A stretch of 40,713 nucleotides of DNA. Source: a bacterium. Lineage in GTDB: Archaea > Thermoplasmatota > Thermoplasmata > Lutacidiplasmatales > UBA184. The notes beneath the pieces are model-generated. The model saw only the letters and a list, made by a program, of their open reading frames with translations. It searched no databases and had not been told where the DNA came from. Of the stretch, positions 6,447 to 38,630 are shown one piece after another (the first letter of the stretch is position 1; every line of letters begins with the position of its first letter). The stretch covers positions 1 to 40,713 of the forward strand of contig DAIDCO010000014.1 in assembly GCA_027309555.1 (NCBI GenBank). The letters run 5' to 3'. Position numbers and translations under genes: made by a program.

Positions 6447-6550
6447 CGGACCCACCCCATCCTACATCGAGTGCTTCCATGCCGAAGGTGCCGCCGGCAC
6501 CGAGTCGGCCACCGGCGGGACGTACGGTGACGATGTCGGCGAGCGCAAGC

Positions 6551-6568
6551 CCCCCTACTTGTAGGGGG
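6551..6568 (+). repeat. Left-end hairpin of the TnpB element
   Basis: CCCCCTA (6551-6557) is perfectly complementary to TAGGGGG (6562-6568) around a CTTG loop. Its position just upstream of tnpB fits the subterminal left-end stem-loop of IS200/IS605-group elements. Alternatively it is a transcription-related hairpin. Confidence 0.5.
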
Positions 6569-6622
6569 ATTAGCGGGCCCCTTATGGGCGTCGGGGACAT
6601 GAGAGGAGTGCTACCTCCGAAG

Positions 6623-7855
6623 ATGCACCAGTCGTTCAAGTACCGTCTCTACCCGTTCCCGAATCAGGAGCGAGAGCTACTGCGCCAGTTCGGGGAGTTG
6701 CGCTTCCTGTGGAACTACGCCCTCGAACGGCGGCAGGAGGCGTGGCGCACGGAGCAGCGATCGATCTCCTACGTGGACCAGTGTCGGGACCTCGCTCGGT
6801 GGCGTGCCTACGACCCGGAGGGTATCGGGAGGGTCTACGGCCACGTCGCCCAAGAGACCCTCGCCCGCCTTCACGACGCGTTCCAACACTTCTTCCGCCG
6901 CGTGAGAACGGCTGGCCGACCGGGCTTTCCCCATTACAAGCGGGAGATCACCTCGCTCACCTATCCCGACTCCAACGGGTCGGCGGTGATCGTCCCCGGG
7001 CGGAACGGGACGCGACGGCTGCGCTTGTCGATGCTCGGCGAGTTGCCAATCGAGGTCCACCGCGAGCCGCCGGCGGGTCGGGTCAAGACCTGCACGGTCG
7101 AGCGGGAGAGGGACCGTTGGTTCGCCATGCTCACCTACGAGATCGAAGACCCCACGTCGCCGCCTTCGACCCTGCCATCCGCGCCTATCGGCGTGGACCT
7201 CGGCCTTTCCCATCTGGCCACGCTCTCCTCCGGGGAGACGGTGGAGCCGCCGAAGTTCCTGCGCGCTTCCGAGCACCGTCTACGTCGCGCCCAGCGGGTC
7301 GTGTCGCGGAGGACGAAGGGCTCGCACCGACGGGAGAAGGCGAGGATGCGGCTGGCCCGGTGCCACGCGAAGGTGCGGGACCAGCGGAGGGACTTCGCGC
7401 ACAAGGTCACCTCGACGTGGGCGAAGCGCCACGACCTGATCGCCTTCGAGGACCTGTCCGTCCCATCGATGCTCGGCGACGCCCACCTGTCGAGGTCGAT
7501 CTCCGACGCCGGGTGGGGGATGCTCCGGCAGATGGCGGCCTACAAGGAGACCCGACGGTCGGGGCGGTACGTCGAGGTCCCGGCGAGCGGGACCACCCAG
7601 ACCTGCTCGGGATGTGGCCGCCTCCACGACCCACCGCTCACGCTTCGGGACCGCACGTACGAATGCCCGTGCGGTCTGCACATGGACAGAGACCTCAACG
7701 CGGCAAGGAACATCCTCGCCCGCGCGCTCGCCACAGTACCCGGGGGCACCGGGGAATCGACGCCCGTGGAGACGGGACCTCCACCGCACCGCAAGGGGCG
7801 GCGAGTCCGGTCGAAGAAGCGGGAACCGCCCCGGGACTCGGAGGTAGCACGATGA
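6623..7855 (+). CDS. tnpB: TnpB, RNA-guided RuvC nuclease of IS605-group element
   Basis: Homologue of TnpB, the omega-RNA-guided DNA nuclease ancestral to Cas12. From the ATG at 6623 the product has 410 residues, starting HQSFKYRLYPFPNQE, the typical N-terminus. All three RuvC acidic residues are present: D192 in GVDLGLSHLA, E276 in IAFEDLSV and D357 in DRDLNAARN. The zinc finger is also present (C328, C331, C348, C350). It therefore looks catalytically intact. The frame is open upstream to an ATG at 6479, so an extension of 48 residues from a host start is possible. The stop overlaps the next start as ATGA. The 3' end plus the right-end hairpin is where the omega-RNA is normally encoded. 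Confidence 0.93.
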   Translation: MHQSFKYRLYPFPNQERELLRQFGELRFLWNYALERRQEAWRTEQRSISYVDQCRDLARWRAYDPEGIGRVYGHVAQETLARLHDAFQHFFRRVRTAGRPGFPHYKREITSLTYPDSNGSAVIVPGRNGTRRLRLSMLGELPIEVHREPPAGRVKTCTVERERDRWFAMLTYEIEDPTSPPSTLPSAPIGVDLGLSHLATLSSGETVEPPKFLRASEHRLRRAQRVVSRRTKGSHRREKARMRLARCHAKVRDQRRDFAHKVTSTWAKRHDLIAFEDLSVPSMLGDAHLSRSISDAGWGMLRQMAAYKETRRSGRYVEVPASGTTQTCSGCGRLHDPPLTLRDRTYECPCGLHMDRDLNAARNILARALATVPGGTGESTPVETGPPPHRKGRRVRSKKREPPRDSEVAR

Positions 7856-11760: not shown

Positions 11761-11769
11761 TACTAATAG
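11761..11769. promoter_or_regulatory. Near-symmetric TATA-like element between divergent genes
   Basis: TACTAATAG reads as a plausible TATA-like element on both strands. On the plus strand it is centred 29 nt before the GTG of the HAD gene, fitting a leaderless transcript. On the minus strand it is about 48 nt before the alternative ATG of the dehydrogenase at 11716. Confidence 0.4.
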
Positions 11770-11793
11770 TCCGCTTCCGCTCGGAATCGGTGC

Positions 11794-12576: not shown

Positions 12577-12599
12577 GCGCCGAAGTCGGGCGAAGCCGC

Positions 12600-16134: not shown

Positions 16135-16845
16135 CTAGCGGGCGGGCGTCGGGGCGGGGCGGGGCCAAAGCCCGAGCGCGATCGCGCCGCGAACGACCGT
16201 GAGGGCGACGACGAAGAGCGGCACTAGGAAGAGGTCGCCTCCCGGCCAAGTGTACCCGACCGCCTCGCCGCCCCAGAATACGGCGAACGAGAAGAGCAGC
16301 GACGTCGCCCCGAGCTTCAGCAGAGGGACCTTGATCTTTCGGATCCGATCCTGCACGACCGCCGTCGCCACCACGAGAACGAGGCCAGCGACCAGGGCGC
16401 CCACGATGGCCGAGAACCCGTAGCCGGCGGCGACGAGCGCGAGCAGGACCACGACCGTCTCGGTCGCCTCCACGGCGCCGACGGAGAAGCCTCCCGCGAA
16501 CTGCAGCGCACTCCCGCTCCCCGGGCCGTGTCCGGGTTTCTGGGGAGCGAGTCCCTGGGCGCGCCGGTACGTCCGCAGCGTGCTACGGAAGAGGAAGATC
16601 CCGAATCCGAGCAGCACGATCGCGGAGGCCCAGAGGAGGTAGTTCCGCGGGAACGCGAGGAGCAGCGCCCCAAACCCAAGGGCCACGAGCGCGACCGCGG
16701 TCGTGCCTCCGACGGCGCCGAGCGCGCCGTGCGTCACCGTGTGATGGTCGGCGCTGAGCGCGAAGACGAGCGCGACGACCTCGGTCATCTCGAGCAGCGT
16801 GATGAGGAACGCCACGAGGATCGCGGGTCCGTAGAGCTCGAACAT
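16135..16845 (-). CDS. COG4280-like membrane protein with internal repeat
   Basis: A 236-residue polytopic membrane protein with six to seven helices. The first half begins LVAFLITLLEMTEVVALVFAL and the second has GGFSVGAVEATETVVVLLAL. These paired Glu-containing helices indicate two homologous halves, reminiscent of UPF0016/LysE-type transporters. It matches my memory of uncharacterised membrane proteins of COG4280. The start ATG at 16845 has a strong GGGAGGG just upstream. Ion transport (a divalent cation or similar) is a guess from the paired acidic residues, not a demonstrated function. Confidence 0.7.
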   Translation of the reverse strand: MFELYGPAILVAFLITLLEMTEVVALVFALSADHHTVTHGALGAVGGTTAVALVALGFGALLLAFPRNYLLWASAIVLLGFGIFLFRSTLRTYRRAQGLAPQKPGHGPGSGSALQFAGGFSVGAVEATETVVVLLALVAAGYGFSAIVGALVAGLVLVVATAVVQDRIRKIKVPLLKLGATSLLFSFAVFWGGEAVGYTWPGGDLFLVPLFVVALTVVRGAIALGLWPRPAPTPAR

Positions 16846-16945
16846 CGTCCCTCCCCAACGGGGGCGGGGCGCGGTCCGAACGCGGCCCGTCCTCGGGGTT
16901 GGCGTCGGTCAATCCTCGCGGAGGATAACCTCTCGCGTTCCGGGC

Positions 16946-17578
16946 TCAGGCGTAGGCGAACGCGCCAACGCGGGAACGAACGACCGGGAGGCGTTCGGCG
17001 AGCGCGTCCACCACGTCCCGGACGTCTCGGCTCGTGAGGCGGCCGCGGAGCTCGAGCGTGGCGCTCGGCGACCGCTCCCGGTGGATCCGTCGGATCGTGG
17101 CGTCGGCGCGGTAGGGAGCGGTGCCCGAAAGTCGGACGGCGAACTCGCGCGCTCCGGAGATCTTCTTCCACGCGTCGCTCTTCAGCGCGCGCAGAAGATG
17201 CCCGACGGGTTCCGAGAGCTGTTCGTGCGCCGGTTCGGGCAGCGGGAGCCAACCTCCCGGCGCCACTTCCCAGTGATCGACGCGCTGGAAGCCGAGCGAC
17301 GCGAGGCCGTGCAAGAGGCCCGCCGTGAGACGGAGAAGGTCGCCGATCTCCACGACCTCCCGTTCGCGCAGAAGCGTCTCCATTTGTCGCAGGAGCGGGA
17401 GTGCGGGCTCGCGCACGACCTCGGGGTGGAGGTCGATCTCGAGACGGGCGTGCGAGAGCGCCCGGGTCCCTCGGGCCCGACGCGTCGGGGTGAACGTCGT
17501 GGGCCAGTCGAGGATCGAGGTCGGTCCGACGAGGTCCGGGGCGGACGTCGGCAAGGAGGCGCTTGCATGTCGAGCCAT
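16946..17578 (-). CDS. Hypothetical protein
   Basis: A 210-residue soluble product that I do not recognise. The central part (ARLEIDLHPEVVREPALPLL, then LTAGLLHGLASLGFQRVDHW) looks folded, with alternating helices and strands. The C-terminal part has ATLELRGRLTSRDVRDVVDAL. There is no cysteine cluster or membrane segment. An A/T-richer GATTTCACC at about 17601-17609 is at the right distance for a leaderless start at 17578. It lies about 100 nt upstream of the COG4280-like gene in the same direction and might be cotranscribed with it. Confidence 0.55.
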   Translation of the reverse strand: MARHASASLPTSAPDLVGPTSILDWPTTFTPTRRARGTRALSHARLEIDLHPEVVREPALPLLRQMETLLREREVVEIGDLLRLTAGLLHGLASLGFQRVDHWEVAPGGWLPLPEPAHEQLSEPVGHLLRALKSDAWKKISGAREFAVRLSGTAPYRADATIRRIHRERSPSATLELRGRLTSRDVRDVVDALAERLPVVRSRVGAFAYA

Positions 17579-17778
17579 GCGAGCGGGGGACGACCGATAG
17601 GTGAAATCCCTTCGGGTCGACCCGCGGCCGGAAGCGCGCGGATGTTCCGCCCCCGGGTCGGCCGACCGGACCCGGAAGCGAAGCGGTCGTTGCGGTATGG
17701 CGAGGAAGGTACCCGACTCTCCGCCCCACTTCGAAGTCCGTACGGAACTCGCAAGTAGGTTCGCGCGGTGGCGCGACC

Positions 17779-17985
17779 GTGTCCGCCACGTCCACCGCCC
17801 TCCTGGTCGTCGGAGTTCTGCTCGCCCTCGCCGGCGTCGCGTTCCTCGCGCTCGATGCGCTCCACATGGGCGATTCGTCGGGCATCGACCCGAAGGACGT
17901 GGGGATCCTGGTCGTGGGGATCCTCCTCGCCGTCATCGGCGCGGCGCTGGCGGGCCGCAAGAAAGTGTCCGTGCCCCCGGCCTGA
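17779..17985 (+). CDS. Small two-helix membrane protein
   Basis: A 68-residue protein with two hydrophobic helices (TALLVVGVLLALAGVAFLAL and VGILVVGILLAVIGAALAG) joined by a polar loop HMGDSSGIDPKD and ending in a basic GRKKVSV tail. It starts with GTG. Such double-helix small membrane proteins are frequent in archaea and mostly unstudied. Confidence 0.65.
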   Translation: MSATSTALLVVGVLLALAGVAFLALDALHMGDSSGIDPKDVGILVVGILLAVIGAALAGRKKVSVPPA

Positions 17986-18583
17986 GCGGACCGCGCGCGT
18001 CGGCGGAGTCCTGCCCGGATCGGGCGCGCGCCCACCCATGGCCGGTGAAGGCCGTGGACCGCTCCATCGAATCCCGCCCGGCCCGCGGTTCGCGATGGTG
18101 GCATTCGCTCCCCAGTTCCCGGAAAGAGCAGAGAACGGGAAGCGGATTCGAAGGTGGGCCAAGACGCTCGACGCGGTCGTCGTGATGTCCCCCGAGCGCT
18201 CGTCCTGCGGTTATGTCGACGAAGCTGCGGAAGAAGTCCCGGACTTCACCGACCCTCTTCAGGTCCGAAAAGGTAGTTCGAAGTGCAACGAAGCGCGCGC
18301 TCACCCATGCGCGGGGAAGTCCGGTCGAACGACCGGGCGATCCGGACGGCGTCGGACTTGGGGTACGGCACCGCCGCGTTCCTCGGCCCCCGATCTCGGT
18401 CTCCCTGACCGTCGCTCCCCATTGAGCGCGCTCGCCCGTGAGAGAACCCCGTCGGCCCTCGGACGGCCTCGGCCGGTGCCTCCGGGGTCTTTCCCCACCC
18501 GGGGCCGGGTCCTCGAGGGGGTCCACGAACGGCCCCCCTCGGTCAAATACCCCTGAACGGGTTGCACCGGTTCGGCCTGAGGC
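17986..18583. other. Gap without a convincing gene
   Basis: About 600 nt between the small membrane protein and the chorismate-utilising synthase. Open frames exist (for example plus-strand ATGs at 18094 and 18213) but none shows a recognisable motif or good start signal. The 18.1-18.3 kb part is less GC-rich than its surroundings. A TATA-like TCAAATAC sits at the right end. Confidence 0.3.
18543..18550 (+). promoter_or_regulatory. TATA-like box for the chorismate-utilising operon
   Basis: TCAAATAC is centred about 38 nt before the ATG at 18584, which would leave a leader of about 12 nt containing TGAGG near the start. Confidence 0.45.
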
Positions 18584-20698
18584 ATGGGAGTGGCATCACC
18601 GTCCGATTCCCGAGCGACGGATCCGGGGGTCCAGATGGCCCGGATGACCCTCCCGGCTTCCCTGTCGTCCCTCCACCGCGCCCTGGCCCGGCGAGCCCCC
18701 GGGGTGTGTCTCCTCGAGACCCTGGGTTCCCCGGGCCATTCCCTCCTCGTATGGGAGCCGGCCGCCATCATCCGCCTCGACGCCGGCAAGGTGCGGGTGG
18801 ACGCACGTCCCGGTGTGTCCCTGCCCCCGACCCCGCAGACCCACGCGCACCTTTTGACGTACCTCGACGCGGTGATTCGACGCTTTCAGCCCTCTGCCTC
18901 CTCCGGGGCGGTGGCTCCTCTTCCGTTCCTCGGGGGGCTCGTGGGGACCGTCGCCTACGACTGGGCGGCCGCTCAGGAGGGTCCCGATCGCCCCCGGGCG
19001 GCCGGAGTGCCCGACCTTTGGTTCGGCCTGTACGATCGCGCGGTCGTCGTCTCGCCGGACGGCGACGCGTGGCTCGTGGTGGTCCCATCGGTCCGGGGGG
19101 CCACCATGCCCGAGGTCCGCCGGAGTCTGGCCGGCGCCCTTCGAGCGGCCGCCCTCCCGGTTTCGGAAGTTCGGCCCCCTTCGGCGCCCCGGGTCACTTC
19201 GGACCTCCCACGCGCGGAGTTTGAGTCGTCCGTCCGAGAGGTCCGACGGCGGATCCGTGCGGGTTCCGTCTATCAGGTGAACCTCGCCCTACGGATGCGG
19301 GCTTCGGGGGTCGACCCGTGGAGGCTCTACGAACGCCTCCGAGAGCGCAACCCTAGCCCCTTCTCGGGGCTCGTCGCGACCGGGGACTTCACCGTCGTCT
19401 GCGCATCTCCCGAGCGGCTCCTGCTCGTCGTGCCGGACGGTCACGGGGATCGGACCGCTGCCACCCGACCGATCGCGGGGACGCGGCCGAGGGCTGCCGG
19501 ATCCCAGGATGCACGGAACGAGAGGGCGCTCCGGACCTCGCCCAAGGAACGGGCGGAACACACGATGCTGGTGGACCTCGGTCGGAACGACCTCGGCCGG
19601 GTGTGCGTCCCGGGGAGCGTCGAGGTGGATGAGTGGTTCACCGTCGAGCGGTATTCCCACGTCATGCATCTCGTCTCCAACGTCCGAGGACGGCTCCGTA
19701 CGGGGACGGGCGTGCGCGAACTGTTCCGAGCGCTCATGCCGGGCGGCTCGGTCACCGGCACCCCCAAGATCCGTGCCACGGAGATCATCGCCGAACTCGA
19801 GCCGATCCCGCGAGGAGCCTACACCGGTTCGCTCGTCTACCTCTCGTTCGACGGGAGGATCGACGCGAACCTCGTGATTCGCAGCGCGTACTTCCCCTTC
19901 GGGGGCGGAGAGGCTCACGTGTACGCGGGTTCCGGGATCGTCCACGCCTCCGACCCCGGACGCGAGTGGAGGGAGGCGCGTCGTAAAGCGGCGGTGCTTC
20001 TCGAAGCCATCGGGGACCGACCGTCGCGGGGGTTTCCCTGGGCTCCGCCACGCCTGGCTCGGTCCTGGACCCCACCGGTCCCGCGCCACCGCCACTCGGG
20101 CCGCCGCGTTCTCCTGATCGACAACTACGACTCGTTTACCCACAACCTCGCTCAGTACCTAGCGGCCCTCGGGGCCCACGTCGCGGTCGTTCGGAACGAC
20201 GGCGGCGGGGTGGACATGCTGCGTTCCCGGAGACCCACGCACGTCGTTCTCTCCCCCGGACCCGGGCGACCTTCCGAGGCCGGAATCACGGAGCGGGCGG
20301 TGCGCGCGTTCGAAGGGACCCCCCTCCTCGGGGTTTGCCTCGGTCACGAGGCGATCATCGAGGCGTACGGGGGAAGCCTACGGGAGGCACCGATCCCGTT
20401 CCACGGTAAGGCCTCGCTCGCGTACCGGGTCGTGGATTCGGGGGAGCAGGATATCTTGGCGGGACTCCCGACCGGGACCCTGGTGGGTCGATACCACTCG
20501 CTCGTGGCCGGTCGAGTGCCCCCTTCCCTCCGCGTCACTGCCCGTACCCAGGATCGACTGGTCATGGCTGTCCAACACCGGACCTTCCCCACGTACGGCG
20601 TGCAGTTCCACCCGGAGTCGATCCTGACGGAAAGAGGGATGGATATCCTGGACCGCTTCCTCGCCGTAACCTCTCCCGCGGAAGCGGAGGGACGATGA
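18584..20698 (+). CDS. Fused chorismate synthase components I and II (PabBA or TrpEG type)
   Basis: A 704-residue fusion. Residues ~20-490 are the chorismate-binding domain (component I), with PIAGT at 296-300, LVDLGRNDLGRV, MPGGSVTGTPKIRA and YTGSLVYLSFDGRID. Residues ~505-700 are a class I glutamine amidotransferase (LLIDNYDSFTHNLAQYL, catalytic C585 in GVCLGHE, then VQFHPES). It makes aminodeoxychorismate or anthranilate from chorismate and glutamine. PIAGT rather than PIKGT favours anthranilate-type chemistry; the overlapping downstream class IV lyase favours 4-aminobenzoate. I lean to aminodeoxychorismate synthase by context, with real doubt. The oxyanion-strand neighbour is GHE where GHQ is usual. 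Confidence 0.85.
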   Translation: MGVASPSDSRATDPGVQMARMTLPASLSSLHRALARRAPGVCLLETLGSPGHSLLVWEPAAIIRLDAGKVRVDARPGVSLPPTPQTHAHLLTYLDAVIRRFQPSASSGAVAPLPFLGGLVGTVAYDWAAAQEGPDRPRAAGVPDLWFGLYDRAVVVSPDGDAWLVVVPSVRGATMPEVRRSLAGALRAAALPVSEVRPPSAPRVTSDLPRAEFESSVREVRRRIRAGSVYQVNLALRMRASGVDPWRLYERLRERNPSPFSGLVATGDFTVVCASPERLLLVVPDGHGDRTAATRPIAGTRPRAAGSQDARNERALRTSPKERAEHTMLVDLGRNDLGRVCVPGSVEVDEWFTVERYSHVMHLVSNVRGRLRTGTGVRELFRALMPGGSVTGTPKIRATEIIAELEPIPRGAYTGSLVYLSFDGRIDANLVIRSAYFPFGGGEAHVYAGSGIVHASDPGREWREARRKAAVLLEAIGDRPSRGFPWAPPRLARSWTPPVPRHRHSGRRVLLIDNYDSFTHNLAQYLAALGAHVAVVRNDGGGVDMLRSRRPTHVVLSPGPGRPSEAGITERAVRAFEGTPLLGVCLGHEAIIEAYGGSLREAPIPFHGKASLAYRVVDSGEQDILAGLPTGTLVGRYHSLVAGRVPPSLRVTARTQDRLVMAVQHRTFPTYGVQFHPESILTERGMDILDRFLAVTSPAEAEGR

Positions 20699-29006: not shown

Positions 29007-29552
29007 ATGGCGGGAATGGCGGAAGCGGAGATGCACGAGCCAGCGCACTTCGGCATCGAAGAAGCGAGGACCGAGGCGAACGGGATGTCGATGGTGGTCT
29101 TCTCGGGCGATCTCGACAAAGCGATCGCGGCGTTCATCATCGCGAACGGCGCGGCCGCGATGGACCTGCCGGTCTCGATGTTCTTCACGTTCTGGGGGCT
29201 CAACATCCTTCGACGGGAAGGGCCGGTCGCGCTGCCGGCCGCGAAGACGAGCACCGAGAAGATGTTCGGTCGCATGATGCCCCGGGGCCCGCGGCAGCTC
29301 AAGCTCTCGCAGATGAACCTCGCGGGGTTCGGCACCCGCATGATCAAGCGGCGGATGAGCGACAAGCACGTGATGGACCTTCCTCATCTCATCCAAGCTG
29401 CGCGCGACCAGGGGGTGCGCTTGATCGCCTGCACGATGACGATGGACCTGATGGGCATTCGCAAGGAGGAGCTGCTGGACGGGATCGACTTCGGCGGCGT
29501 CGGTACGTTCGTCGATTCCGCCGACCGTAGCCGGTCGACGCTGTTCGTCTAG
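29007..29552 (+). CDS. DsrE2/DsrE-like sulfur-transfer protein
   Basis: A 181-residue cytosolic protein of the DsrE/DsrF/DsrH-like (DsrE2) family. MVVFSGDLDKAIAAFIIANG is the typical start, FFTFWGLNILRR follows, and the conserved cysteine is C142 in LIACTMTMDLMG. The end is GIDFGGVGTFVDSA. Homologues relay persulfide sulfur together with TusA in sulfur-oxidising bacteria and archaea. It is 263 nt upstream of a TusA gene in the same direction and separated from it by a large hairpin, so it may be a separate transcript serving the same pathway. The ATG at 29007 precedes the acidic N-terminal extension; an internal start near MSMVVF is possible. Confidence 0.85.
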   Translation: MAGMAEAEMHEPAHFGIEEARTEANGMSMVVFSGDLDKAIAAFIIANGAAAMDLPVSMFFTFWGLNILRREGPVALPAAKTSTEKMFGRMMPRGPRQLKLSQMNLAGFGTRMIKRRMSDKHVMDLPHLIQAARDQGVRLIACTMTMDLMGIRKEELLDGIDFGGVGTFVDSADRSRSTLFV

Positions 29553-29562
29553 CGGACCGTTC

Positions 29563-29627
29563 GGCGCCTCCGTTCCCCCCGCTCCCCGTTCGGGCGCTCG
29601 CTCGGGGCGGGGTCGAACGGAGACGCC
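29563..29627 (+). terminator. Long hairpin after the DsrE2-like gene
   Basis: GGCGCCTCCGTTC (29563-29575) pairs with GAACGGAGACGCC (29615-29627) at 12 of 13 positions, with further C/G blocks pairing inside. It begins 10 nt after the stop. It could limit read-through into the TusA operon or act as a processing/stability element; there is no clear U-tract. Confidence 0.35.
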
Positions 29628-29815
29628 GGCTCGCAGGGGCCGAAGAACCTCTTCCGCAGTTCGTGAGAGAGGGGCCGGGTTCGGGAAGGGCCTCGAGCGC
29701 GAGGTGCTTATTCCTTCGAGGTGAAGCGCACTTTACACCGAGATACCGGCGAGGTCATGCCGGGTCCACTTTCCTCTCTTATCGTGGCCGCCGCCTGAAG
29801 CCGCTCGAGGAGCCG

Positions 29816-30076
29816 ATGACGATGGACGTAGAGCAGCTTCGCCACCTGAAGGTCGACAAGACGATCGATGCGCGCGGGGTCGCGTGCCCGGGCCCCCTCC
29901 TCGAAGCGAAGCGCGCGGTGACCGGCGTCCCGCTGCACGGGGTGATGGAGGTCATCTCCTCGGACGAGGGGACGACCGAGGACGTTCCGCTCTGGGCCCG
30001 GAAAGTGGGACACGACTACCTCGGAACGGTCCCGGATGCGGGGCTCTGGCACGTGTACGTTCGGAAGGAAAAGTGA
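29816..30076 (+). CDS. tusA: TusA-family sulfur carrier protein
   Basis: An 86-residue TusA/SirA-type protein with the sulfur-carrying cysteine C24 in ARGVACPGPLLEAKRAV, followed by the usual beta-alpha-beta fold. It carries persulfide sulfur between cytosolic enzymes. It is the first gene of a seven-gene operon; its stop overlaps the GTG of the MvhD-like gene (GTGA). The ATG at 29816 is used; the ATG two codons later is equally possible. A TATA-like CTTATCG near 29778-29784 may be the operon promoter. Its position with Hdr-like genes suggests its persulfide is the substrate or product of the Hdr-like complex (inference). Confidence 0.9.
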   Translation: MTMDVEQLRHLKVDKTIDARGVACPGPLLEAKRAVTGVPLHGVMEVISSDEGTTEDVPLWARKVGHDYLGTVPDAGLWHVYVRKEK

Positions 30077-30525
30077 CGGCCCCCGCCACCTCCGTGGGTC
30101 GCGGTCCCCGGGTGCTCGTCTTCTCGACGAACGCCATCTCGGACATGGGGATCGACCTCGCGGGAAGCTCCCACCTCGACTACCCCTCCGGGGTCGAGGT
30201 GATCCCGGTTCCCTGCTCGAGCGGGATCAATCCTCGCTGGATCCTCCACGCGATCCGGGCGGGGTTCGACGGGGTCTTCATCGCGGCCGACGGTCCCGAG
30301 TGCTCCTACCTCTCCGATTGCGTCGCCCGGACGGGGCATGTGGTCGACCAGGCCCAGGAGCTCCTGCGGCAGAACGGGCTCGACCCCTCGCGGGTCAAGA
30401 CCTCCGCCATCTGCTCGGTCTGCTCCGAGCCGTTCGTCAGCCACATGAGACAGTTCACGAAAGCGCTCGCGGGCCTTGCCTCCGTGCCCGGGACCCCTTC
30501 GGCCGTCGCGGCGGGGGCGGCATGA
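30073..30525 (+). CDS. MvhD/FlpD-like iron-sulfur protein lacking the N-terminal cysteines
   Basis: A 150-residue homologue of MvhD, the [2Fe-2S] electron-transfer subunit linking hydrogenase or formate dehydrogenase to HdrA. The order of conserved blocks fits: VLVFSTNAISDMGIDLAG, YPSGVEVIPVPCSSGINP, then GFDGVFIAADGPECSYLSDC. The usual CCNWCSYxGAD start is STNAISDMGID here, so those cluster ligands are missing. Cysteines at about 48, 77, 83, 114 and 117 (AICSVCSEPF) remain and could bind a cluster. It starts with GTG overlapping the tusA stop and ends overlapping the hdrA start. No hydrogenase or formate dehydrogenase gene is nearby, so it may pass electrons only within the complex. Confidence 0.78.
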   Translation: MTAPATSVGRGPRVLVFSTNAISDMGIDLAGSSHLDYPSGVEVIPVPCSSGINPRWILHAIRAGFDGVFIAADGPECSYLSDCVARTGHVVDQAQELLRQNGLDPSRVKTSAICSVCSEPFVSHMRQFTKALAGLASVPGTPSAVAAGAA

Positions 30526-33254
30526 ACGCCGCATCCCCGGCGACCCGGTACGATGTCCTGGTCCTCGGTGCCGGGGTCGGGGGGATGGAGTCGGCGCTCA
30601 CGCTCGGGGACATGGGGTACCAGGTCCTCGTCGTCGAGAAGGAGCCGAGCGTCGGCGGCCGGATGATCCTCCTCAGCAAGGTCTTCCCGACGCTCGACTG
30701 CGCGAGCTGCATCTCGACCCCCAAGATGGCGGCCGTGAACAACCACCCCCACGTACGGGCCCTCGTCTCCTCCGAAGTGAACGACATCACGCCACGGCCC
30801 GAAGGCGGATTTCTCGTCCACCTGACGCGCAAGCCGACGTTCGTGGACGCGGCGAAGTGCACGGGCTGCGCCCTCTGCGAGTCCGCGTGCACCGTCGCGG
30901 TCCCGGACGAGTTCAACTACGACCTGACGGCACGCCGGGCGGCGCACATCGCCTTCCCGCAGGCGGTTCCGAAGAAGGCGGTCATCACGCGCCGGGGCTC
31001 TTCCCCCTGTTCGTTCACCTGCCCCGCCGGCGTGAAGCCGCACGGCTACGTCTCGCTCGTGCGGTCCGGACAGTACGACGAGGCGTTCCGGCAGCATCTC
31101 GACGACGCTCCGCTCGTGGGGGTCCTGAGCCGCGCGTGCTACGCGCCGTGCGAGGAGGCCTGCTCGCGGAAGGAGCTCGAAGGACCGGTCTCCATCCGCG
31201 GGATCAAGCGGTTCATGTCGGACCGCTACTACGCCGCCCATCCCGTGCCCGAGTACGGGCCCCCCTCGGAGCGGAAAGGCGCCCGGGTCGCCATCGTGGG
31301 CAGCGGTCCGAGCGGGCTCGCGGCCGCCTTCGTCCTCGGACGGGCCGGGTACGACGTCACGGTCTTCGAGGCCGAGCAGGAGGCCGGCGGCATCCTGCGC
31401 TGGGGGATCCCTTCCTATCGCCTCCCGAAGGACGTGGTGGCGCGGGACCTCGCGAACATCACCGCGCTCGGGGTGAAGATCGAGACCGGCCACCGGGTGA
31501 CCTCCCTCGCCGAGCTCCAAGGGGCGGGATTCGGGGCGGTCTACCTCGCGACCGGCGATCGGGGCGGCCGCAAGCTCTCCGTGCCCGGCGAGGATCTCGC
31601 GGGCGTCTACGACGCGGTCGACTACCTGCACGAGCTCAACGCCGACCGCCCCCCCGACTTCTCGGGAAAGACGGTCATCGTGATCGGCGGGGGCAACGTC
31701 GCGATCGATTCGGCGCGCAGCGCCCGGCGCCTCGGCGCGCGGTCGGTCGAGCTCTTCTGCCTCGAGTCGAGGGCCGAGATGCCCGCCCACCCCTGGGAGA
31801 TCCAGGAGGCGGAAGAGGAGGGGGTCGTCGTCACGAACTCCTGGGGCGTCGGCCAGGTCCTCGGCTACGACCGCAAGGTCCTGGGAGTCGAGCTCGTCCG
31901 TTGCACCTCCGTCTTCGACGCGGAGCACCGGTTCCGGCCGACCTTCGACTCCTCCGTGCGCCAGAGCGTCCACGGCGAGGTCGTGATCACCGCGATCGGG
32001 CTCGCGCCCAACACGGGCGCCTTCGCCTCTCAGGTGGAGCTTCAGCGCAACGGCACCGTCAAGGTGGACCCCGAGACGCTCGCGACGAGCGTTCCGGGCG
32101 TCTTCGCGGGGGGCGACGCCGTCACGGGTCCAGCGATGATCGTGACCGCGATCGGCCAGGGAAAGCGCGCGGCGTTCTACATCGAACGGTTCCTGCGCGG
32201 GGAGCCGCTCGAGGGAGCCAAGTTCGACGACCGGCTGCCCGAGGTCGATGCCTCGACGGTCGCCGCCGAGGCGCGCCGCGACGCGGTGCCCCGACCGCCC
32301 GTTCCGATCCCGCGCCGGCCGGCCCTCGAGCGGGTCACGTCGTTCGAGCCGTACGAGGCCGTGCTGAGCGAGACCGAAGCGCGCACGAGCGCGAACCGGT
32401 GCTTGGACTGCGGCGTCTGCTCGGAGTGCCGCGAGTGCGTCCGCGCCTGCCCCGCGAACGCGATCGACCTTGACATGCGGGCGCGGACGGAGACGGTCGT
32501 GGTCCAGTCCGTCGCCCTCGCCACGGGATTCACCCCGTTCGATGCCCGCCAGAAGCCCGCGTTCGGCTTCGGTCGGTTCGCGAACGTGATCAACGGGCCG
32601 CAGATGGACCGGATCCTGGCCCCGACGCGCCCGTTCAACGCGGTCGTGCGACCCTCCGACGGGAAGGCGCCGAGCAACGTCGCGTTCGTCCTCTGCACCG
32701 GATCGCGGGACGAACAGGTCGGCAACCGGCTCTGCTCGCGCGTCTGCTGCATGTACTCGATGAAGCAGGCGCAGCTCCTCCTCGGCTCGTTGCCGCTCGC
32801 GGACGTCACGATCTACTACATCGACCTCCGCGCGTTCGGCAAGGGATACGAGGAGTTCCTCCAGCAGACGAAGGGCATGGGCGTGATCTTCCGCAAGGGG
32901 AAGGTCTCGCGGGTCGAAGAGACGGACGACCACGACCTCCTCGTCCACTACGAGGATATCGAAGGCGGCGGCGGGTCGACGGTCGCGCGGCACGACCTCG
33001 TGGTGCTCTCGACCGGCCTCCTCCCGAACCCGGGCGCCTTGGCCCTGTTCCCGAAGGGAGGTCTCGAGAAGGACGCGTACTCCTACGTCCGGGAGGTCAA
33101 CGAGGAGCTCGAGCCGGGGAAGACGACCCTCGAGGGGGTCTTCGTCATCGGGTCGGCGACCGCGGTCCGGGACATCCCGGACACGATCGTCCACTCCGAA
33201 GCGGCCTCCGCGCAGATCGCGGCGTACCTCAAGCGCGAGGGGGCGAAGGCATGA
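30522..33254 (+). CDS. hdrA: HdrA-like flavoprotein with inserted GltD/NfnB-type NAD(P)H module
   Basis: A 910-residue chimera. Residues 1-150 are the HdrA FAD start: GAGVGG 16-21, CASC 60-63, and CTGCALCESAC 113-123. Residues ~160-600 are a GltD/NfnB-like oxidoreductase: Cys-rich domain from C163, a second FAD motif VGSGPSG near 260 and an NAD(P) motif IGGGNVAID near 389. From 627 a six-cysteine stretch CLDCGVCSECRECVRACP precedes the rest of HdrA, with CTGSRDE near 725 and CSRVCCMYSMKQA. HdrA proteins house the bifurcating flavin in HdrABC; NfnB-type modules exchange electrons with NAD(P)H. The protein could couple NAD(P)H, ferredoxin and a sulfur substrate. It overlaps both neighbours by 4 nt. 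The long thioredoxin-like HdrA N-terminus is absent here and present in the next gene. Confidence 0.9.
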   Translation: MNAASPATRYDVLVLGAGVGGMESALTLGDMGYQVLVVEKEPSVGGRMILLSKVFPTLDCASCISTPKMAAVNNHPHVRALVSSEVNDITPRPEGGFLVHLTRKPTFVDAAKCTGCALCESACTVAVPDEFNYDLTARRAAHIAFPQAVPKKAVITRRGSSPCSFTCPAGVKPHGYVSLVRSGQYDEAFRQHLDDAPLVGVLSRACYAPCEEACSRKELEGPVSIRGIKRFMSDRYYAAHPVPEYGPPSERKGARVAIVGSGPSGLAAAFVLGRAGYDVTVFEAEQEAGGILRWGIPSYRLPKDVVARDLANITALGVKIETGHRVTSLAELQGAGFGAVYLATGDRGGRKLSVPGEDLAGVYDAVDYLHELNADRPPDFSGKTVIVIGGGNVAIDSARSARRLGARSVELFCLESRAEMPAHPWEIQEAEEEGVVVTNSWGVGQVLGYDRKVLGVELVRCTSVFDAEHRFRPTFDSSVRQSVHGEVVITAIGLAPNTGAFASQVELQRNGTVKVDPETLATSVPGVFAGGDAVTGPAMIVTAIGQGKRAAFYIERFLRGEPLEGAKFDDRLPEVDASTVAAEARRDAVPRPPVPIPRRPALERVTSFEPYEAVLSETEARTSANRCLDCGVCSECRECVRACPANAIDLDMRARTETVVVQSVALATGFTPFDARQKPAFGFGRFANVINGPQMDRILAPTRPFNAVVRPSDGKAPSNVAFVLCTGSRDEQVGNRLCSRVCCMYSMKQAQLLLGSLPLADVTIYYIDLRAFGKGYEEFLQQTKGMGVIFRKGKVSRVEETDDHDLLVHYEDIEGGGGSTVARHDLVVLSTGLLPNPGALALFPKGGLEKDAYSYVREVNEELEPGKTTLEGVFVIGSATAVRDIPDTIVHSEAASAQIAAYLKREGAKA

Positions 33255-34972
33255 CCGGCCGCAAGATCGGCGTCGTCGTCTGCGAGTGCGGCGGCAACAT
33301 CTCCGACTACGTCGACACCGAGAAGGTGCGCGCGGCGATTGCGCAGGAAGGGGACGTCGTCTCCTCCCACGTCCAGATGTTCGCCTGCTCGGACGCGGCC
33401 CAGCAGGACGCGATCCGCGAGATCCGGGAAAAGAAGCTCGACGGGATCGTCGTCTGCTCTTGCTCGCCGAAGCTTCACACGGCGACGTTCCGCGCGATGG
33501 CGGAACGGGCCGGGCTGAACCCGTACGAGTACACCCAGGTCAACATCCGCGAGCAGGACTCCTGGGCGCACACGCACGACCGCGAGGGGGCTACGGAAAA
33601 AGCGATCGAGCTCGCCCGGGCGGGCGTCGCGAAGACCGCGCTCTCCGAGCCGCTCGTCCGCCGACGGGTGGAGACGCTGCCGCAGGCGGTGGTAGTGGGG
33701 GCCGGGATCGCGGGCCTGCGGGCCGCGGTCGCCCTTTCCGACCTCGGTGTCTCCGTCCACTTGGTCGAAAAGGCAACCGCCCCCGGAGGGCAGGTCGCTC
33801 GATGGGGGAGCCTCTTCCCGAACGACAAGGTCGGCCGGGGGCTCGTCGACGAGCTCCTCAACGAGGTGCGCCGCCGCGAGAACATCCAGCTTTACCTTTC
33901 GACCGAGCTGGTCGAGAAGTCAGGGCGCCTCGGCGCCTTCGACGTCACGCTCCGGACCGCGACCGGGGCGGTCATACCGCTCAAGGTCGGCGCGATCGTG
34001 GTCGCGACCGGCTTCGACCCCTACGCCCCGTCCACCGGGGAGTTCGGCTACGGACTCGACGGCGTGGTCACGCTACCGGAGTTCAAGGAGCTCCTCGCGG
34101 CCCATCCCGCCCGCCTGACCTACCGGGGCCGGGACGTCCGGACGGTCGCGTACGTCTACTGCGTGGGGTCGCGCGAGACCGCACCCGGTTCTCCCCGGAC
34201 CTACTGCTCCCGCTACTGCTGCAGCGCCACCTCGCACATCGCGACGGTCGTCAACGGGCTCGACCCCTCGGTCCACCAGTTCCACCTCTTCCGGGACATC
34301 CGGACCTACGGCAAGTACGAGGCGCTCTACGAGAAGGCGCTCCGGGGCGGGTCGGTGTACCTCCGCTACTCGGAGGAGAGCCCGCCGACCGTGACCGAGG
34401 AGAACGGCGGTCTGGTCGTGAAGGTCCGCGATCAACTGCTGGCGGGGGAGGAAGTGGAGATCCGTCCCGACCTTGTCGTCCTCGTCACCGGCATGGTCCC
34501 CCGCGCGAACGACCCGCTCGTTCATGCGCTCAAGCTTCCGGTCGGCCAGGACGGGTTCTTCCGCGAAGTGCACGTCAAGCTGCGACCGGTCGAGACGGTC
34601 CTCGACGGGGTCTTCATCGTGGGCGCGTCGCAGGGTCCGAAGAACGTCGCGGAGAGCGTCGCCTCCTCCCTCGCGGGGGTCGCGAAGACCGGGGCGCTGC
34701 TCCTCAAGGGGTACGTCGATCTCGACCCGTTGGTCGCCCGGGTGGAACCGAACCTCTGCGCATGGTGCGACGAGTGCACGAAGGCCTGCCCGTACGGCGC
34801 GATCGACCGCGTGCGCCAGGGCGAGACGGAGGTCGCCGAGGTCAATGGGGTCCTCTGCAAGGGCGAAGGGGCGTGCGTGCCGGCCTGCCCGAAGGAGGCG
34901 ATCAGCCTCCTCGGCTACTCGAACGCGCAGATCTCCTCGATGATCGACGCGCTCGTGAAGGAGGCGACATGA
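33251..34972 (+). CDS. hdrA: Second HdrA-like subunit
   Basis: A 573-residue HdrA homologue. It begins with the HdrA N-terminal domain (KIGVVVCECGGNISDYVD and VVCSCSPKLHTATFR). The FAD motif VVGAGIAGLRAAVAL follows near 150, then CVGSRETAPG, CSRYCCSATSH and the C-terminal flavin-binding part. Two ferredoxin motifs end the protein. The first is complete (C503, C506, C509, C513), while the second reads CKGEGACVPACP, with Glu539 in place of the second cysteine. It overlaps the preceding hdrA and the following gene by 4 nt each. Two different HdrA-like proteins in one operon suggest a heteromeric complex, the first carrying the NAD(P)H site. Confidence 0.9.
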   Translation: MTGRKIGVVVCECGGNISDYVDTEKVRAAIAQEGDVVSSHVQMFACSDAAQQDAIREIREKKLDGIVVCSCSPKLHTATFRAMAERAGLNPYEYTQVNIREQDSWAHTHDREGATEKAIELARAGVAKTALSEPLVRRRVETLPQAVVVGAGIAGLRAAVALSDLGVSVHLVEKATAPGGQVARWGSLFPNDKVGRGLVDELLNEVRRRENIQLYLSTELVEKSGRLGAFDVTLRTATGAVIPLKVGAIVVATGFDPYAPSTGEFGYGLDGVVTLPEFKELLAAHPARLTYRGRDVRTVAYVYCVGSRETAPGSPRTYCSRYCCSATSHIATVVNGLDPSVHQFHLFRDIRTYGKYEALYEKALRGGSVYLRYSEESPPTVTEENGGLVVKVRDQLLAGEEVEIRPDLVVLVTGMVPRANDPLVHALKLPVGQDGFFREVHVKLRPVETVLDGVFIVGASQGPKNVAESVASSLAGVAKTGALLLKGYVDLDPLVARVEPNLCAWCDECTKACPYGAIDRVRQGETEVAEVNGVLCKGEGACVPACPKEAISLLGYSNAQISSMIDALVKEAT

Positions 34973-35220
34973 CAGGAAAGGCGAACTTGAGGAACCTTCG
35001 CGAGGTCCTCCGGGACGAGATGGTCGAGCGCGACCGCGTCGCCGAGCTCCTGCGCGGGGGCGCGAAGACCCTTCCCGAGATCGCCTCGGCGCTCGGCGCG
35101 CCCGAGGAGGAGGTCACGAAGTGGGTGATGGCGATGCGCCGATACGGCCGGATCCACGACCTCCCGAAAGCGCGCGCCGACGACTACTACCGCTACGAGC
35201 TCACGGGAGGTCCGAAATGA
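34969..35220 (+). CDS. Small helix-turn-helix-like protein within the Hdr operon
   Basis: An 83-residue product. RVAELLRGGAKTLPEIASAL, then GAPEEEVTKWVMAMRRYGRI is a clear winged-helix-type pattern (helix, turn, recognition helix), ending in KARADDYYRYEL. It has no cysteines. It overlaps the second hdrA and hdrC by 4 nt each, so it is made with the complex. It may be a regulator of the operon, or a small wHTH-fold structural subunit, since similar small proteins are encoded between hdr genes elsewhere; the sequence cannot decide. Confidence 0.75.
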   Translation: MTGKANLRNLREVLRDEMVERDRVAELLRGGAKTLPEIASALGAPEEEVTKWVMAMRRYGRIHDLPKARADDYYRYELTGGPK

Positions 35221-35525
35221 AGGTCGATCCCGATTTCCTCACAGCGCTGAACCTCGGCGGAGGGTTCGACGCGCGGATGTGCATGAACTGCGGCACCTGC
35301 ACGGCGCTCTGCCCGCTCGGCGTCGAGCTCCTGCCCCGGAAGCTGTTCCGGTACGCGCTGCTCGGCGATCGCGACCGGGTCCTCGGCCAGACGGAGACGA
35401 TCTTCAGCTGCCTGCTCTGCCGCATGTGCGAGTCGAACTGCCCCGCCGGCGTGCACATCGCGGAGAACGTACGGACGCTCCGGACGTACATCAATCGCGA
35501 GATACACGCGCTCGCGGAGGCGTGA
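35217..35525 (+). CDS. hdrC: HdrC-like ferredoxin subunit
   Basis: A 102-residue protein with two complete [4Fe-4S] motifs: C22, C25, C28, C32 (CMNCGTCTALCP) and C65, C68, C71, C75 (CLLCRMCESNCP), separated by the HdrC helical linker with PRKLFRYALLGDRD. It shuttles electrons between HdrA and HdrB. The length is short but typical of a cytosolic HdrC without membrane anchor. It overlaps the HTH gene by 4 nt and is followed 7 nt later by the HdrB-like gene. Confidence 0.92.
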   Translation: MKVDPDFLTALNLGGGFDARMCMNCGTCTALCPLGVELLPRKLFRYALLGDRDRVLGQTETIFSCLLCRMCESNCPAGVHIAENVRTLRTYINREIHALAEA

Positions 35526-35532
35526 GGCGACC

Positions 35533-36507
35533 ATGCCCGTTCCGATCAAGAGCACCCTCGGGATCCTCGGGGATAATCTCCGGAAGCGCCACAGCGCGCT
35601 CCCCCTCGGCCGGCGCAAGGTCACCGCCTGGACCCGCGGCCTCGGGATCCCTCGCGGCGGCAAGACCGTCCTCTACACTGGCCAGATGTGGCAGATGGTG
35701 CCCGCGATCAACGCCATGAGCCGTCAGCTCGCGAAGTACGAGCACTCCCGCATGGGTTTCCTCTTCGGCTTCGCGCGGTCGATGAACAAGCTGGTCAACC
35801 TGACCCCGCTCCTGGCCCGCACGAGCGCCCGAGAGCGGGAGGAGTACGACCGGCGCCTGCGGAACATCGCTCGCCTGCTCAAGGCAGCCGGGGTCGAGTT
35901 CGGCTACCTCTACGAGAACGACCTCTATGCGGGGGGTCTCGCCCATGACGAGGGGCTCGACCGGGGGTTCGTCGCGCACGCCGAGCGGGTCTCCGAAAAC
36001 CTCCGGCGCGCCGGCGTCGAGCGCGTGATCACCGTCGACCCCCACACGACCAACATGCTGCGGAGTGTCTATCCCAAGGTCGTGCCCGGTTTCTCGATCG
36101 CGGTGAAGAGCTATCTCGAAGTGCTCGCGGAGCGGGATTTCGCCCGGCGACGGTCGGTGGACCGCACCGCCACGATCCACGACTCCTGTGTCTACGCCCG
36201 CTACGAAGGGGTCGTCGACCAGCCCCGGAAGCTTCTGGCGGGAGCGGGGGTCCGCCTCTCCGAGCCCGAGCTCTCGGGAACGCTCACGTTCTGCTGCGGC
36301 GGGCCGCTCGAGACGCTCTTCCCGGGAAAGTCGGCCGAGATCGCGACGCGCCGTATCGAGCAGTTGGGGTCGGTGAACCGCCAGGTCGTGACGGCCTGCC
36401 CGCTCTGCCTCGCGAACCTCTCCCGCGTCGCGCCGCCCGAGACCGAGGTTCGGGACATCTCCGACTACCTGGCCGAGGCCTACTGTCCGACGGAGGCCCC
36501 CGCGTAA
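35533..36507 (+). CDS. hdrB: HdrB-like CCG-domain protein with one intact cysteine motif
   Basis: A 324-residue protein of the CCG (cysteine-rich) domain family, the catalytic-type subunit of Hdr-like enzymes. The second CCG motif is intact: C219 (HDSCVYARY), C254-C255 (FCCGGP) and C289/C292 (CPLCLANL). In the first half LYTGQMWQMVP, near residue 48, stands where YTGCMYQ-type cysteines occur in related proteins, and no other cysteines appear in the N-terminal half. Only one noncubane-type cluster is therefore expected. It is the last gene of the operon. In methanogen HdrB two such clusters cleave CoM-S-S-CoB; with one, a different disulfide or persulfide substrate is likely (inference). Confidence 0.85.
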   Translation: MPVPIKSTLGILGDNLRKRHSALPLGRRKVTAWTRGLGIPRGGKTVLYTGQMWQMVPAINAMSRQLAKYEHSRMGFLFGFARSMNKLVNLTPLLARTSAREREEYDRRLRNIARLLKAAGVEFGYLYENDLYAGGLAHDEGLDRGFVAHAERVSENLRRAGVERVITVDPHTTNMLRSVYPKVVPGFSIAVKSYLEVLAERDFARRRSVDRTATIHDSCVYARYEGVVDQPRKLLAGAGVRLSEPELSGTLTFCCGGPLETLFPGKSAEIATRRIEQLGSVNRQVVTACPLCLANLSRVAPPETEVRDISDYLAEAYCPTEAPA

Positions 36508-37139: not shown

Positions 37140-38630
37140 ATGAGTGCCATCCTCGACCTCCCGACTGAGGTCTACACATTCCTCAGCCGGCCGGCGCCGC
37201 AGACGATGCTCCTCCGGGGCCCTCCGGGTTCCGGGAAGACGACCCTCTCGCTCTCGTTGCTCGAGAACTTCCGGGGGGGTCGCTTCCTCATCTCGAGCCG
37301 GGTTTCGGCCGACGAGCTAGCACGCGAGTTTCCCTGGGTCGCGAATGGTAGCAGCATCCAGCTCGTCGACGTCACCCAGCGTTCCGGTACGCTCAAGGAG
37401 GCGGGACAGGTCATCTCCCACCTCGGCGACCTGATTCACGATCCGGACAAGGAGGAGGGTCTCCGGGGCCTGTGGCTTCCCCAACCCGTCCAGGAGGCGT
37501 GGAGCCGCGCCGACCCGGGCCACCCCTGCATGATCGTCATCGATTCCTGGGACGCGCTCGTCGAGCGGTACCTGGGAACCGCTGTTACGGGAAACGAACT
37601 TCCCGACCGGAGCGAGCTGGAGCGTCTCCTGCTCGACCAGATGAGCCGGGGTCCGATCTTCCTGGTGCTGGTCGTCGAGCGATCCGAGCGATCCCAACTC
37701 GACTACCTGGTCAACGCGGTCCTCGAGAGCGCCTCCAACGGCCAGACGGGACGCCCCGAGCGCTGGCTCTACCTCCGCAAGCTCCGGGGGACTCGAATCG
37801 ACAGCCCGGTCTATCCGTTCACGCTCGATGGAGCCCGGTTCCAGTGCATCGCACCGATGCCGGCGGGCCTGCTCGGCCGTAACCTCCTCCCCGAGGCCGA
37901 ACCGGAGGTTGTTCCCGGGACCCTCTGGCCCGGATGCTCGGACTTTGCCGCTGCCTTTGGCCGTCTTCGGGTCGGCCACCTCACGCTGGTGGAGCGGGAC
38001 CTCTCCGTGCCGACCGAAGCGCTGACCTTGCTGGTCCGCCCGATGGCGGGCCACGTGGCCCGAAACGGAGGACGCGTTCTCCACATCCTGCCCCCTAACA
38101 TCGGAACGGAGGAGGTGCTCCGGATGTACCGGGAGCTCCTTACCCGCGAGCAGATAGTCCGGCAGGTCCGGTTCCAGCTGAGCGCCCCCTTCCCGGACGT
38201 GCCGGAGGATCTGGCCAGGACGGTCATCCCTCCCCCGGTCTCCGACAGTCGAGGGACCGAGCCCCGGACTCCCGAGGCGGCCCGATTCCTGCAGGAGGCC
38301 GGCCGGCCGGGGTCGGCCAACCTTTCCATCGTCTGGGTCTCGGCGCTCCGGGCATTCGCCGCCGCCCGGGGCATCGACTACAGCCCGGATACGCTGCCCG
38401 GGCAGGCCTTCGCCTACTTGTCCGGCGCCCCTGCCCACTCGGTCTTCCTCGGACCGGACAACGACCCGCTGACCGCCTGCCTCCGAACGATGGCGGCGAT
38501 CCGGATCCGCTTGACGTCGAACGCGGGCCGAGTTTTTGCCTGGGGAGAGCAACCCACGACGCCGTCGTTCGTCCTCTCCGAGGGAGACGACGCCACGGGG
38601 AAGCCCTACCGCCTTCTCCGGGTCGTCTGA
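37140..38630 (+). CDS. KaiC/GvpD-like P-loop ATPase
   Basis: A 496-residue product. An N-terminal RecA/KaiC-like NTPase shows a full Walker A, LLRGPPGSGKTTLSLSLL (residues ~24-41), and a Walker B-like CMIVIDSWDAL near 130. A sensor region around IFLVLVVERSERSQLDYLV follows. The C-terminal half (from ~270) has no motif I recognise and may be a dimerisation or partner domain, as in archaeal GvpD-like proteins. The ATG at 37140 places the ATPase directly at the N-terminus. Unlike the coiled-coil protein at 7.9-10.6 kb its Walker A is intact. A role in signal transduction or transcription regulation is possible; no gvp genes are present. Confidence 0.75.
   Translation: MSAILDLPTEVYTFLSRPAPQTMLLRGPPGSGKTTLSLSLLENFRGGRFLISSRVSADELAREFPWVANGSSIQLVDVTQRSGTLKEAGQVISHLGDLIHDPDKEEGLRGLWLPQPVQEAWSRADPGHPCMIVIDSWDALVERYLGTAVTGNELPDRSELERLLLDQMSRGPIFLVLVVERSERSQLDYLVNAVLESASNGQTGRPERWLYLRKLRGTRIDSPVYPFTLDGARFQCIAPMPAGLLGRNLLPEAEPEVVPGTLWPGCSDFAAAFGRLRVGHLTLVERDLSVPTEALTLLVRPMAGHVARNGGRVLHILPPNIGTEEVLRMYRELLTREQIVRQVRFQLSAPFPDVPEDLARTVIPPPVSDSRGTEPRTPEAARFLQEAGRPGSANLSIVWVSALRAFAAARGIDYSPDTLPGQAFAYLSGAPAHSVFLGPDNDPLTACLRTMAAIRIRLTSNAGRVFAWGEQPTTPSFVLSEGDDATGKPYRLLRVV

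Follow-up and report, generated by a model that had tools for sequence, protein, structure and literature searches.

By what route other than the Dsr and sHdr pathways can sulfur bound to TusA be coupled to electron carriers? To our knowledge this is an open question, and it is raised by an operon on contig DAIDCO010000014.1 (C20 in our numbering) of assembly GCA_027309555.1, a Thermoplasmata genome of 2.04 Mb in 114 contigs that is 90% complete. The window, i.e., this whole stretch of 40,713 nucleotides, carries in succession genes for a DsrE2-like sulfurtransferase, the sulfur carrier TusA, an MvhD-like subunit, an HdrA-like flavoprotein with an inserted GltD/NfnB module (HdrA1), a second HdrA-like protein (HdrA2), a small winged-helix protein, HdrC, and an HdrB-like protein (cf. 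Table 1). A sequence-only reading of this DNA had proposed these eight genes in this order, and profile searches against Pfam and NCBIfam, on which the gene names are based, bore it out, with all eight genes lying on one strand. The close spacing that it described for the last seven genes also follows from the coordinates, the five successive junctions from TusA to HdrC being 4-nt overlaps and the HdrC-HdrB gap 7 nt; the DsrE2 gene lies 263 bases upstream of the TusA gene. We propose, with a probability of about 50%, that the operon encodes a single cytosolic oxidoreductase of the Hdr/Qmo superfamily that is dedicated to TusA and, in this genome, includes an NAD(P)H module.

Conservation of the operon and its hosts

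Close relatives were sought with HdrB as the query against 300 genomes of the class. Full-length orthologs (58-83% identity) were confined to the same family, and a fragmented one was also present in G272, a member of the same genus. Stretches from 15 same-family genomes showed an identical gene order wherever the contig extends, the exceptions being two loci with a weak DsrE match (L042 and L043, 32-33%), one with no DsrE2 match (L038), one cut at a contig edge (L039), and one in which HdrA1 was in pieces and no HdrC match was found (L049). The operon was absent from 25 other stretches fetched for weaker HdrB matches (28-42%), some of which hold other Hdr clusters. A second type of Hdr cluster, with HdrA2-, MvhD-, HdrC-, and HdrB-like genes 25-43% identical to those of the operon, was seen in L060 (G263) and in L041 (positions 16469-19673; G248), and that of L060 also holds a GltD-less HdrA1-like gene.

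A wider scan of named genomes, with residues 41-260 of HdrA1 alone as the query, returned 406 relatives, of which the best 80 loci were analyzed. The order TusA-MvhD-HdrA(GltD)-HdrA-winged helix-HdrC was found in nearly all of them where the contig reaches. Counted over all 80 loci and, in brackets, over those with sufficient contig, TusA was found upstream of HdrA1 in 77 (75/76, the miss being L093), MvhD in 79 (77/78, the miss being L088), HdrA2 in 69 (65/67), the winged helix in 64 (63/66, one miss, L109, having it outside the allowed position), and HdrC in 64 (64/66). A match to the DsrE2 query was present in 53/80 loci and in 34 of the 44 longer than 15 kb. The gap between the TusA stop and the projected MvhD start had a median of 1.5 bases (76 loci). 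The sequence-only reading had named a lack of co-occurrence in related genomes as evidence against itself; instead, the genes travel together within the family and beyond it. Chance grouping and a local assembly artifact are ruled out by the order kept in the family and in the HdrA1-retrieved loci.

For the alignments, proteins covering less than 60% of the query were dropped, which left, e.g., 75 HdrA1 rows from 81 sources. The tree of these rows (the window and 74 loci) spans 16 phylum-level groups plus seven unassigned rows, the window being one of the latter. Among the best 80 of the 406 relatives, the nearest named ones to the window genome are Thermoplasmata metagenome-assembled genomes, the window's HdrA1 being 86% identical to that of L075. 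A branch with a support of 99 sets the window and 16 Thermoplasmatota rows apart from the others, and these 17 rows lie near Chloroflexota rows and the unassigned L095. In a midpoint-rooted tree from a quick search, this placement is compatible with a single transfer into archaea. Distance matrices of 46 rows correlated between subunits (HdrA1-HdrA2 and HdrA2-HdrB, 0.90 each; TusA-HdrA1, 0.73; TusA-HdrC, the lowest, 0.43), with shared phylogeny uncorrected.

DsrA and AprA were searched for in 49 hosts, comprising the window's own genome and those of 48 of the 80 loci. DsrA was found in 22 (18 over cut-off, four divergent or fragmentary), with seven further hosts showing weak sulfite-reductase-type matches that were not counted, AprA over cut-off in 24, and at least one of the two in 26. 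A second comparison covered 37 genomes of the family, i.e., 16 operon carriers, G263, and 20 other listed members of the genus. Here DsrA was present in 5/16 operon carriers vs 0/21 genomes without an HdrB ortholog (Fisher p 0.010, relatedness uncorrected). The DsrAB of these five genomes are divergent (loci L155-L160, L162, L163, L165, and L167), and in G248 they are flanked by frames that, read by eye, resemble DsrM, DsrK, DsrE, and DsrC; such frames occur in L165. DsrE2 matches above 180 bits numbered 12 in the 37 genomes, all in operon carriers, 11 of them at the operon and the other on contig C35 of G041. As for recurrent neighbors, defined as single-linkage clusters with one annotated representative each, 36 of the 80 loci had an ArsR-type cluster close by, 23 a small DsrE, and 21 sigma-54 regulators.

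Subunits, cysteines, and exchangeable ends

Features that define the family are the rewired MvhD-like subunit, the HdrB whose first CCG domain is devoid of cysteines, the division of one HdrA into HdrA1 and HdrA2, and the exchangeable ends. The motif cysteine of TusA is kept in 77/78 sequences and the DsrE2 cysteine in 52/53 homologs, and the five cysteines of the MvhD-like subunit are invariant in 79/79 rows and likewise in a 45-row alignment (A4). Canonical MvhD chains carry their cysteines as CNWC, MCSG, and GC..GDC. The subunit encoded here has lost the first cysteine pair and the GC, and three of its five invariant cysteines stand at non-canonical positions; compared with the canonical CxxC/MCSG/GC..GDC set, two are kept and three are new. 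The same five are readable in the GltD-less loci L168-L170 described below. The predicted structure (mean predicted local distance difference test score, pLDDT, of 83), whose best match was 5odc_D (TM score 0.83 by target), indicates that the subunit keeps the MvhD fold despite its changed cysteines.

HdrA1 has its GltD/NfnB module inserted within the inserted-ferredoxin region, with HdrA halves on both sides; 20 cysteine columns are invariant in the covering rows and C742 is kept in 68/72. Aligned with 5odc_A, HdrA2 lacks the inserted ferredoxin and the DCxxC pair and retains the N-terminal domain and the C-terminal ferredoxin, whereas HdrA1 retains DCxxC and the interrupted inserted ferredoxin. 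Judged from this alignment, HdrA1 and HdrA2 split the domains of one HdrA between them. The same split of an HdrA exists between QmoA and QmoB. Chains of the NfnA/NfnB type, of glutamate synthase, and of dihydropyrimidine dehydrogenase align with the GltD part, in support of the NAD(P)H-binding module that had been read from the sequence. An acidic residue in the beta-2 motif of such modules suggests NADH and an RR-type motif NADPH; the window reads CLES, and the 75 rows comprise 29 with an acidic motif, 43 with RR, and three with another. By the rule of Lyu et al. (PMC12054007), GXGXXG denotes NAD and GXGXXA denotes NADP, and the window reads GGGNVA, which is of the GXGXXA type. In L088 (YP1.bin27, positions 8737-9690 and 9875-12658), a paralogous locus whose HdrA1 has a YRR (NADPH-type) motif, no HdrA2 was found in the stretch.

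The small helix-turn-helix protein noted from the sequence is indeed predicted to be a winged helix. It gave no match over the Pfam cut-off, and its best folds were of the SmtB/ArsR type (E 5.6e-4). In L088 it is fused to a TusA-like domain whose CPGP cysteine is lost, and since this fusion joins the winged helix to a TusA-like domain, the protein is probably a structural adaptor. A role as the operon's transcription factor is conceivable; we weighed and dropped it in view of (i) the mid-operon position, (ii) the separate ArsR-type gene near the 36 loci mentioned above, and (iii) the L088 fusion.

In HdrC, eight cysteines are kept in 65/65 rows, and in HdrB the five cysteines of the CCG stretch are invariant in 48/48. 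The first half of HdrB has no conserved cysteine in these 48 rows and reads DPHTTN at the site where active CCG proteins carry CPHC. By its sequence, HdrB therefore has one intact CCG domain, the first having lost its cysteines. The end of the operon is exchangeable: of the 64 loci that extend as far as HdrC, 47 end in HdrC plus HdrB, 16 in a QmoC-like protein, and one (L125) in another arrangement, with at least seven changes of end module on the HdrA1 tree. In the QmoC-like end, HdrC continues into a C-terminal part of roughly 280 residues with three to six predicted hydrophobic segments, and the fused proteins of L168, L144, and L170 aligned with almost the whole QmoC profile at scores of 190-250 bits, under its 300-bit cut-off. 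The idea that cofactor type follows the end module was dropped: the beta-2 motif of QmoC-ended rows is RR in 15/16 and other in 1/16, but the tree-aware test had too few pairs.

Three archaea of the same phylum (G096, G021, and G008) carry TusA, the five-cysteine MvhD, a GltD-less HdrA1, HdrA2, the winged helix (identified by eye in L170), and a QmoC-like end; a weak DsrE match occurs in L168 and L169 and none in L170. In the GltD-less locus of G008, one or more in-frame stops or shifts break up the HdrA2-like gene (L170, 11164-13085). As some loci lack HdrB or GltD, the constant core consists of TusA, MvhD, HdrA1, HdrA2, the winged helix, and the HdrC part, and the complex, as read from these gene sets, is modular, with both the GltD insert and HdrB dispensable. 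The label "NAD(P)H-type" that the sequence-only reading gave to the system thus fits the GltD-bearing variant and fails as a general description.

Table 1. Genes of the operon and two further genes of the window
Feature	Positions	Strand	Evidence and remarks
DsrE2-like sulfurtransferase	29007..29552	+	PF13686 (DrsE_2) E 3.6e-57; one conserved Cys in CTMTMDLMGI
TusA sulfur carrier	29816..30076	+	PF01206 E 2.6e-18; CPGP motif
MvhD-like subunit, GTG start	30073..30525	+	FlpD/MvhD E 8.5e-27; rewired cysteines C48, C77, C83, C114, C117
HdrA1, HdrA/QmoA-like flavoprotein	30522..33254	+	HdrA halves flanking Fer4_20 and Pyr_redox_2; GltD/NfnB module at about residues 157-560
HdrA2	33251..34972	+	HdrA-like, E 5e-131; N-terminal domain and C-terminal ferredoxin domain
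Small winged-helix protein without Cys	34969..35220	+	Predicted fold, pLDDT 91.2
HdrC, two [4Fe-4S] motifs	35217..35525	+	TIGR03290 E 7.4e-13 and qmoC E 2.5e-11, both under cut-off
HdrB-like protein	35533..36507	+	PF02754 (CCG) E 2e-10, one stretch 214-296; C219, C254-C255, C289, C292
IS605 OrfB/TnpB-type transposase gene	6479..7852	+	
GvpD-like P-loop protein	37152..38630	+	Downstream of the operon

Proposed mechanism and competing explanations

In the mechanism that we propose, NADH, to which the acidic beta-2 residue in CLES points, would donate or accept electrons at the GltD flavin, and these would travel over ferredoxin-type clusters, the HdrA flavins, and HdrC to the non-cubane cluster of HdrB. 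The sulfane sulfur carried by TusA (TusA-S-SH / TusA-SH + HS-) would react at the MvhD-like subunit; we place the sulfur chemistry on this side because TusA and the five-cysteine MvhD are constant, whereas HdrB and GltD are missing from some loci. The partner of HdrB would be a soluble disulfide and that of the QmoC-like end quinone, and DsrE2 would load or unload TusA. The reaction may run either way, as NAD(P)H-dependent reduction to sulfide or as sulfur-driven reduction of NAD(P)+, quinone, or a disulfide. The GltD-less, QmoC-ended form has no partners in view other than TusA sulfur and quinone, and for this pair known potentials favor electron flow from sulfur to quinone.

Several points weigh against this proposal: (i) the complex is a prediction from sequence; (ii) the MvhD cysteines may just be ligands of another Fe-S cluster and take no part in sulfur chemistry; (iii) a DsrE2-query match is absent from 10/44 loci longer than 15 kb, L093 has no TusA match, and the TusA-like domain of L088 lacks its cysteine; (iv) the loci analyzed were the 80 best among 406, which biases their architecture toward the query; (v) the cofactor choice is uncertain, because the CLES (NADH) and GGGNVA (NADP) criteria disagree and the motif varies among rows; and (vi) the physiological role is not fixed, since DsrA was not found in the own genome and 23/49 hosts have neither DsrA nor AprA.

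A possible, though less than likely, alternative follows the type III HdrA model of Lyu et al. and takes the operon for an electron-bifurcating NAD(P)H : ferredoxin/disulfide complex, in which TusA and DsrE2 would deliver sulfur elsewhere or regulate rather than serve as redox substrates. The HdrA-GltD fusion alone is already known: HdrL of Desulfobacterium autotrophicum is an HdrA/glutamate synthase fusion, and HdrL1 with mvhD adjoins dsrABC (Strittmatter 2009, PMC2702500), and type III HdrA (Lyu, Yu, Lu 2025, PMC12054007) has a GltD insert in nine sequences from ANME-1 and Bathyarchaeota, in mcrA-bearing genomes. Both share with the operon's HdrA1 a GltD inserted in HdrA, and HdrL also has MvhD nearby. 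NADH use has been proposed for type III HdrA (PMC12054007), and the HdrB encoded here retains the full non-cubane motif, both of which are in line with bifurcation. The same paper argues, however, that the GltD insert may keep ferredoxin out, and TusA recurs in all but one of the loci reaching far enough and in forms without HdrB or GltD. Compared with these descriptions, the operon adds TusA (not mentioned in the main text of PMC12054007), a second HdrA, the winged helix, a one-CCG HdrB or QmoC, and the rewired MvhD. With the HdrABC-MvhAGD of methanogens (5odc, 8rvu) it shares the HdrA domain set, the HdrC motifs, and the MvhD fold; it differs in that HdrA is split in two, HdrB keeps one of two CCG motifs, the MvhD cysteines are moved, and no hydrogenase is among the eight genes. 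Neither a two-CCG HdrB, nor a single four-part HdrA, nor the full canonical set of MvhD cysteines, the hallmarks of a coenzyme M-coenzyme B HdrABC, were found. HdrABC-MvhD chemistry is thus not simply transferable, since HdrB keeps one of its two active-site domains and MvhD is rewired.

It is unlikely that the operon is the electron partner of adenosine 5'-phosphosulfate (APS) reductase, i.e., a QmoAB-HdrBC complex acting in sulfate reduction or sulfur oxidation. Its parts are of the same kinds as QmoAB plus HdrBC or QmoC: QmoABC and QmoAB-HdrBC, the latter described for Gram-positive sulfate reducers (PMC10504309), also combine two HdrA-like subunits and HdrC with HdrB or a membrane QmoC. 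AprA occurs in the 24 hosts counted above, the own genome included, and an AprAB link is possible in the latter because it has AprA and no HdrA2-like protein beyond those of the operon and of sHdr (sHdrA). On the other hand, 25/49 hosts have no AprA over cut-off, and within the family AprA is present in 8/16 operon-bearing genomes vs 8/21 without an HdrB ortholog. Moreover, all five bacterial genomes examined (G330, G344, G305, G310, and G324) have another HdrA2-like gene 1-3 kb from aprA, called QmoB-like from similarity and position only, with the operon elsewhere. Of the eight family genomes with AprA and without an HdrB ortholog, the five searched with HdrA2 (G065, G080, G177, G221, and G239) gave one match each, at the level of sHdrA. 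QmoABC further differs in having AprAB rather than TusA and DsrE2 as neighbors, and the operon has the GltD insert. Hence the operon is probably not the Apr partner, and this explanation is weakened. A type II Qmo of unclear role has also been described; the main text names TusA twice, never beside Qmo (PMC10504309), and some QmoC-ended relatives of the operon may have been counted there as type II Qmo.

The own genome carries an sHdr locus on another contig (L161, C70:30000-49900), with HdrC1-HdrB1-sHdrA-HdrC2-HdrB2, LbpA twice, LplA-like, DsrE, SQR-like, and two TusA genes, HdrB1, HdrB2, LplA, and SQR being named from reading frames, not from profiles; AprA lies on the same contig (C70:46946-48730). 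From this gene content, the organism looks like a sulfur oxidizer via sHdr and APS reductase. The published sHdr layout is hdrC1B1A-hyp-hdrC2B2 with lbpA (PMC6067878). In agreement with the sequence-only reading, no lipoate-binding protein is encoded in the window, the four PF01597 matches of the genome lying on C29, C59, and C70 and none on C20. Membership of the operon in sHdr was rejected, as it has no second HdrB or HdrC and no LbpA or lipoate genes, and as the host separately carries the canonical set on C70; this, together with the order conserved across phyla, supports the earlier view of a separate Hdr-like system. Very unlikely, too, is a diverged sHdr sulfur-oxidation complex making sulfite from TusA-bound sulfur, for although TusA and DsrE family carriers and HdrA, HdrB, and HdrC kinds are common to both and an ArsR-type gene commonly lies close to the operon (in Hyphomicrobium, sHdr is under the control of ArsR-type repressors; PMC12423496), the operon has two HdrA, one HdrB and one HdrC, no LbpA or LplA, and a GltD-type NAD(P)H module and MvhD that are foreign to sHdr.

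A possible modular family of TusA-linked complexes

No description of the whole operon (TusA with MvhD-HdrA-HdrA-HTH-HdrC-HdrB) was found in the open PMC literature. The YTD cluster of sulfur disproportionators comprises TusA and DsrE together with a YedE-related protein and two or three hypothetical proteins (PMC12998232). Returning to our proposal of a TusA-dedicated oxidoreductase, we tentatively extend it to a modular family across archaea and many bacterial phyla, in which TusA itself would be the redox substrate of an Hdr/Qmo-type complex, its persulfide would be made or broken at the five-cysteine MvhD, and NAD(P)H (GltD), quinone (QmoC), or a soluble disulfide (one-cluster HdrB) would be plug-in partners. 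The operon is a concrete candidate for the coupling of TusA sulfur to electron carriers in sulfate reducers, Kiritimatiellota, Acidobacteriota, Chloroflexota, and Thermoplasmata, and named strains among its carriers (Desulfofundulus, Desulfotomaculum copahuensis, and Pontiella) make biochemistry feasible. It also shows how the Hdr/Qmo construction kit can add an optional insert and interchangeable ends to a core that stays the same, and, if the proposal is true, it would be a new branch in microbial sulfur handling.

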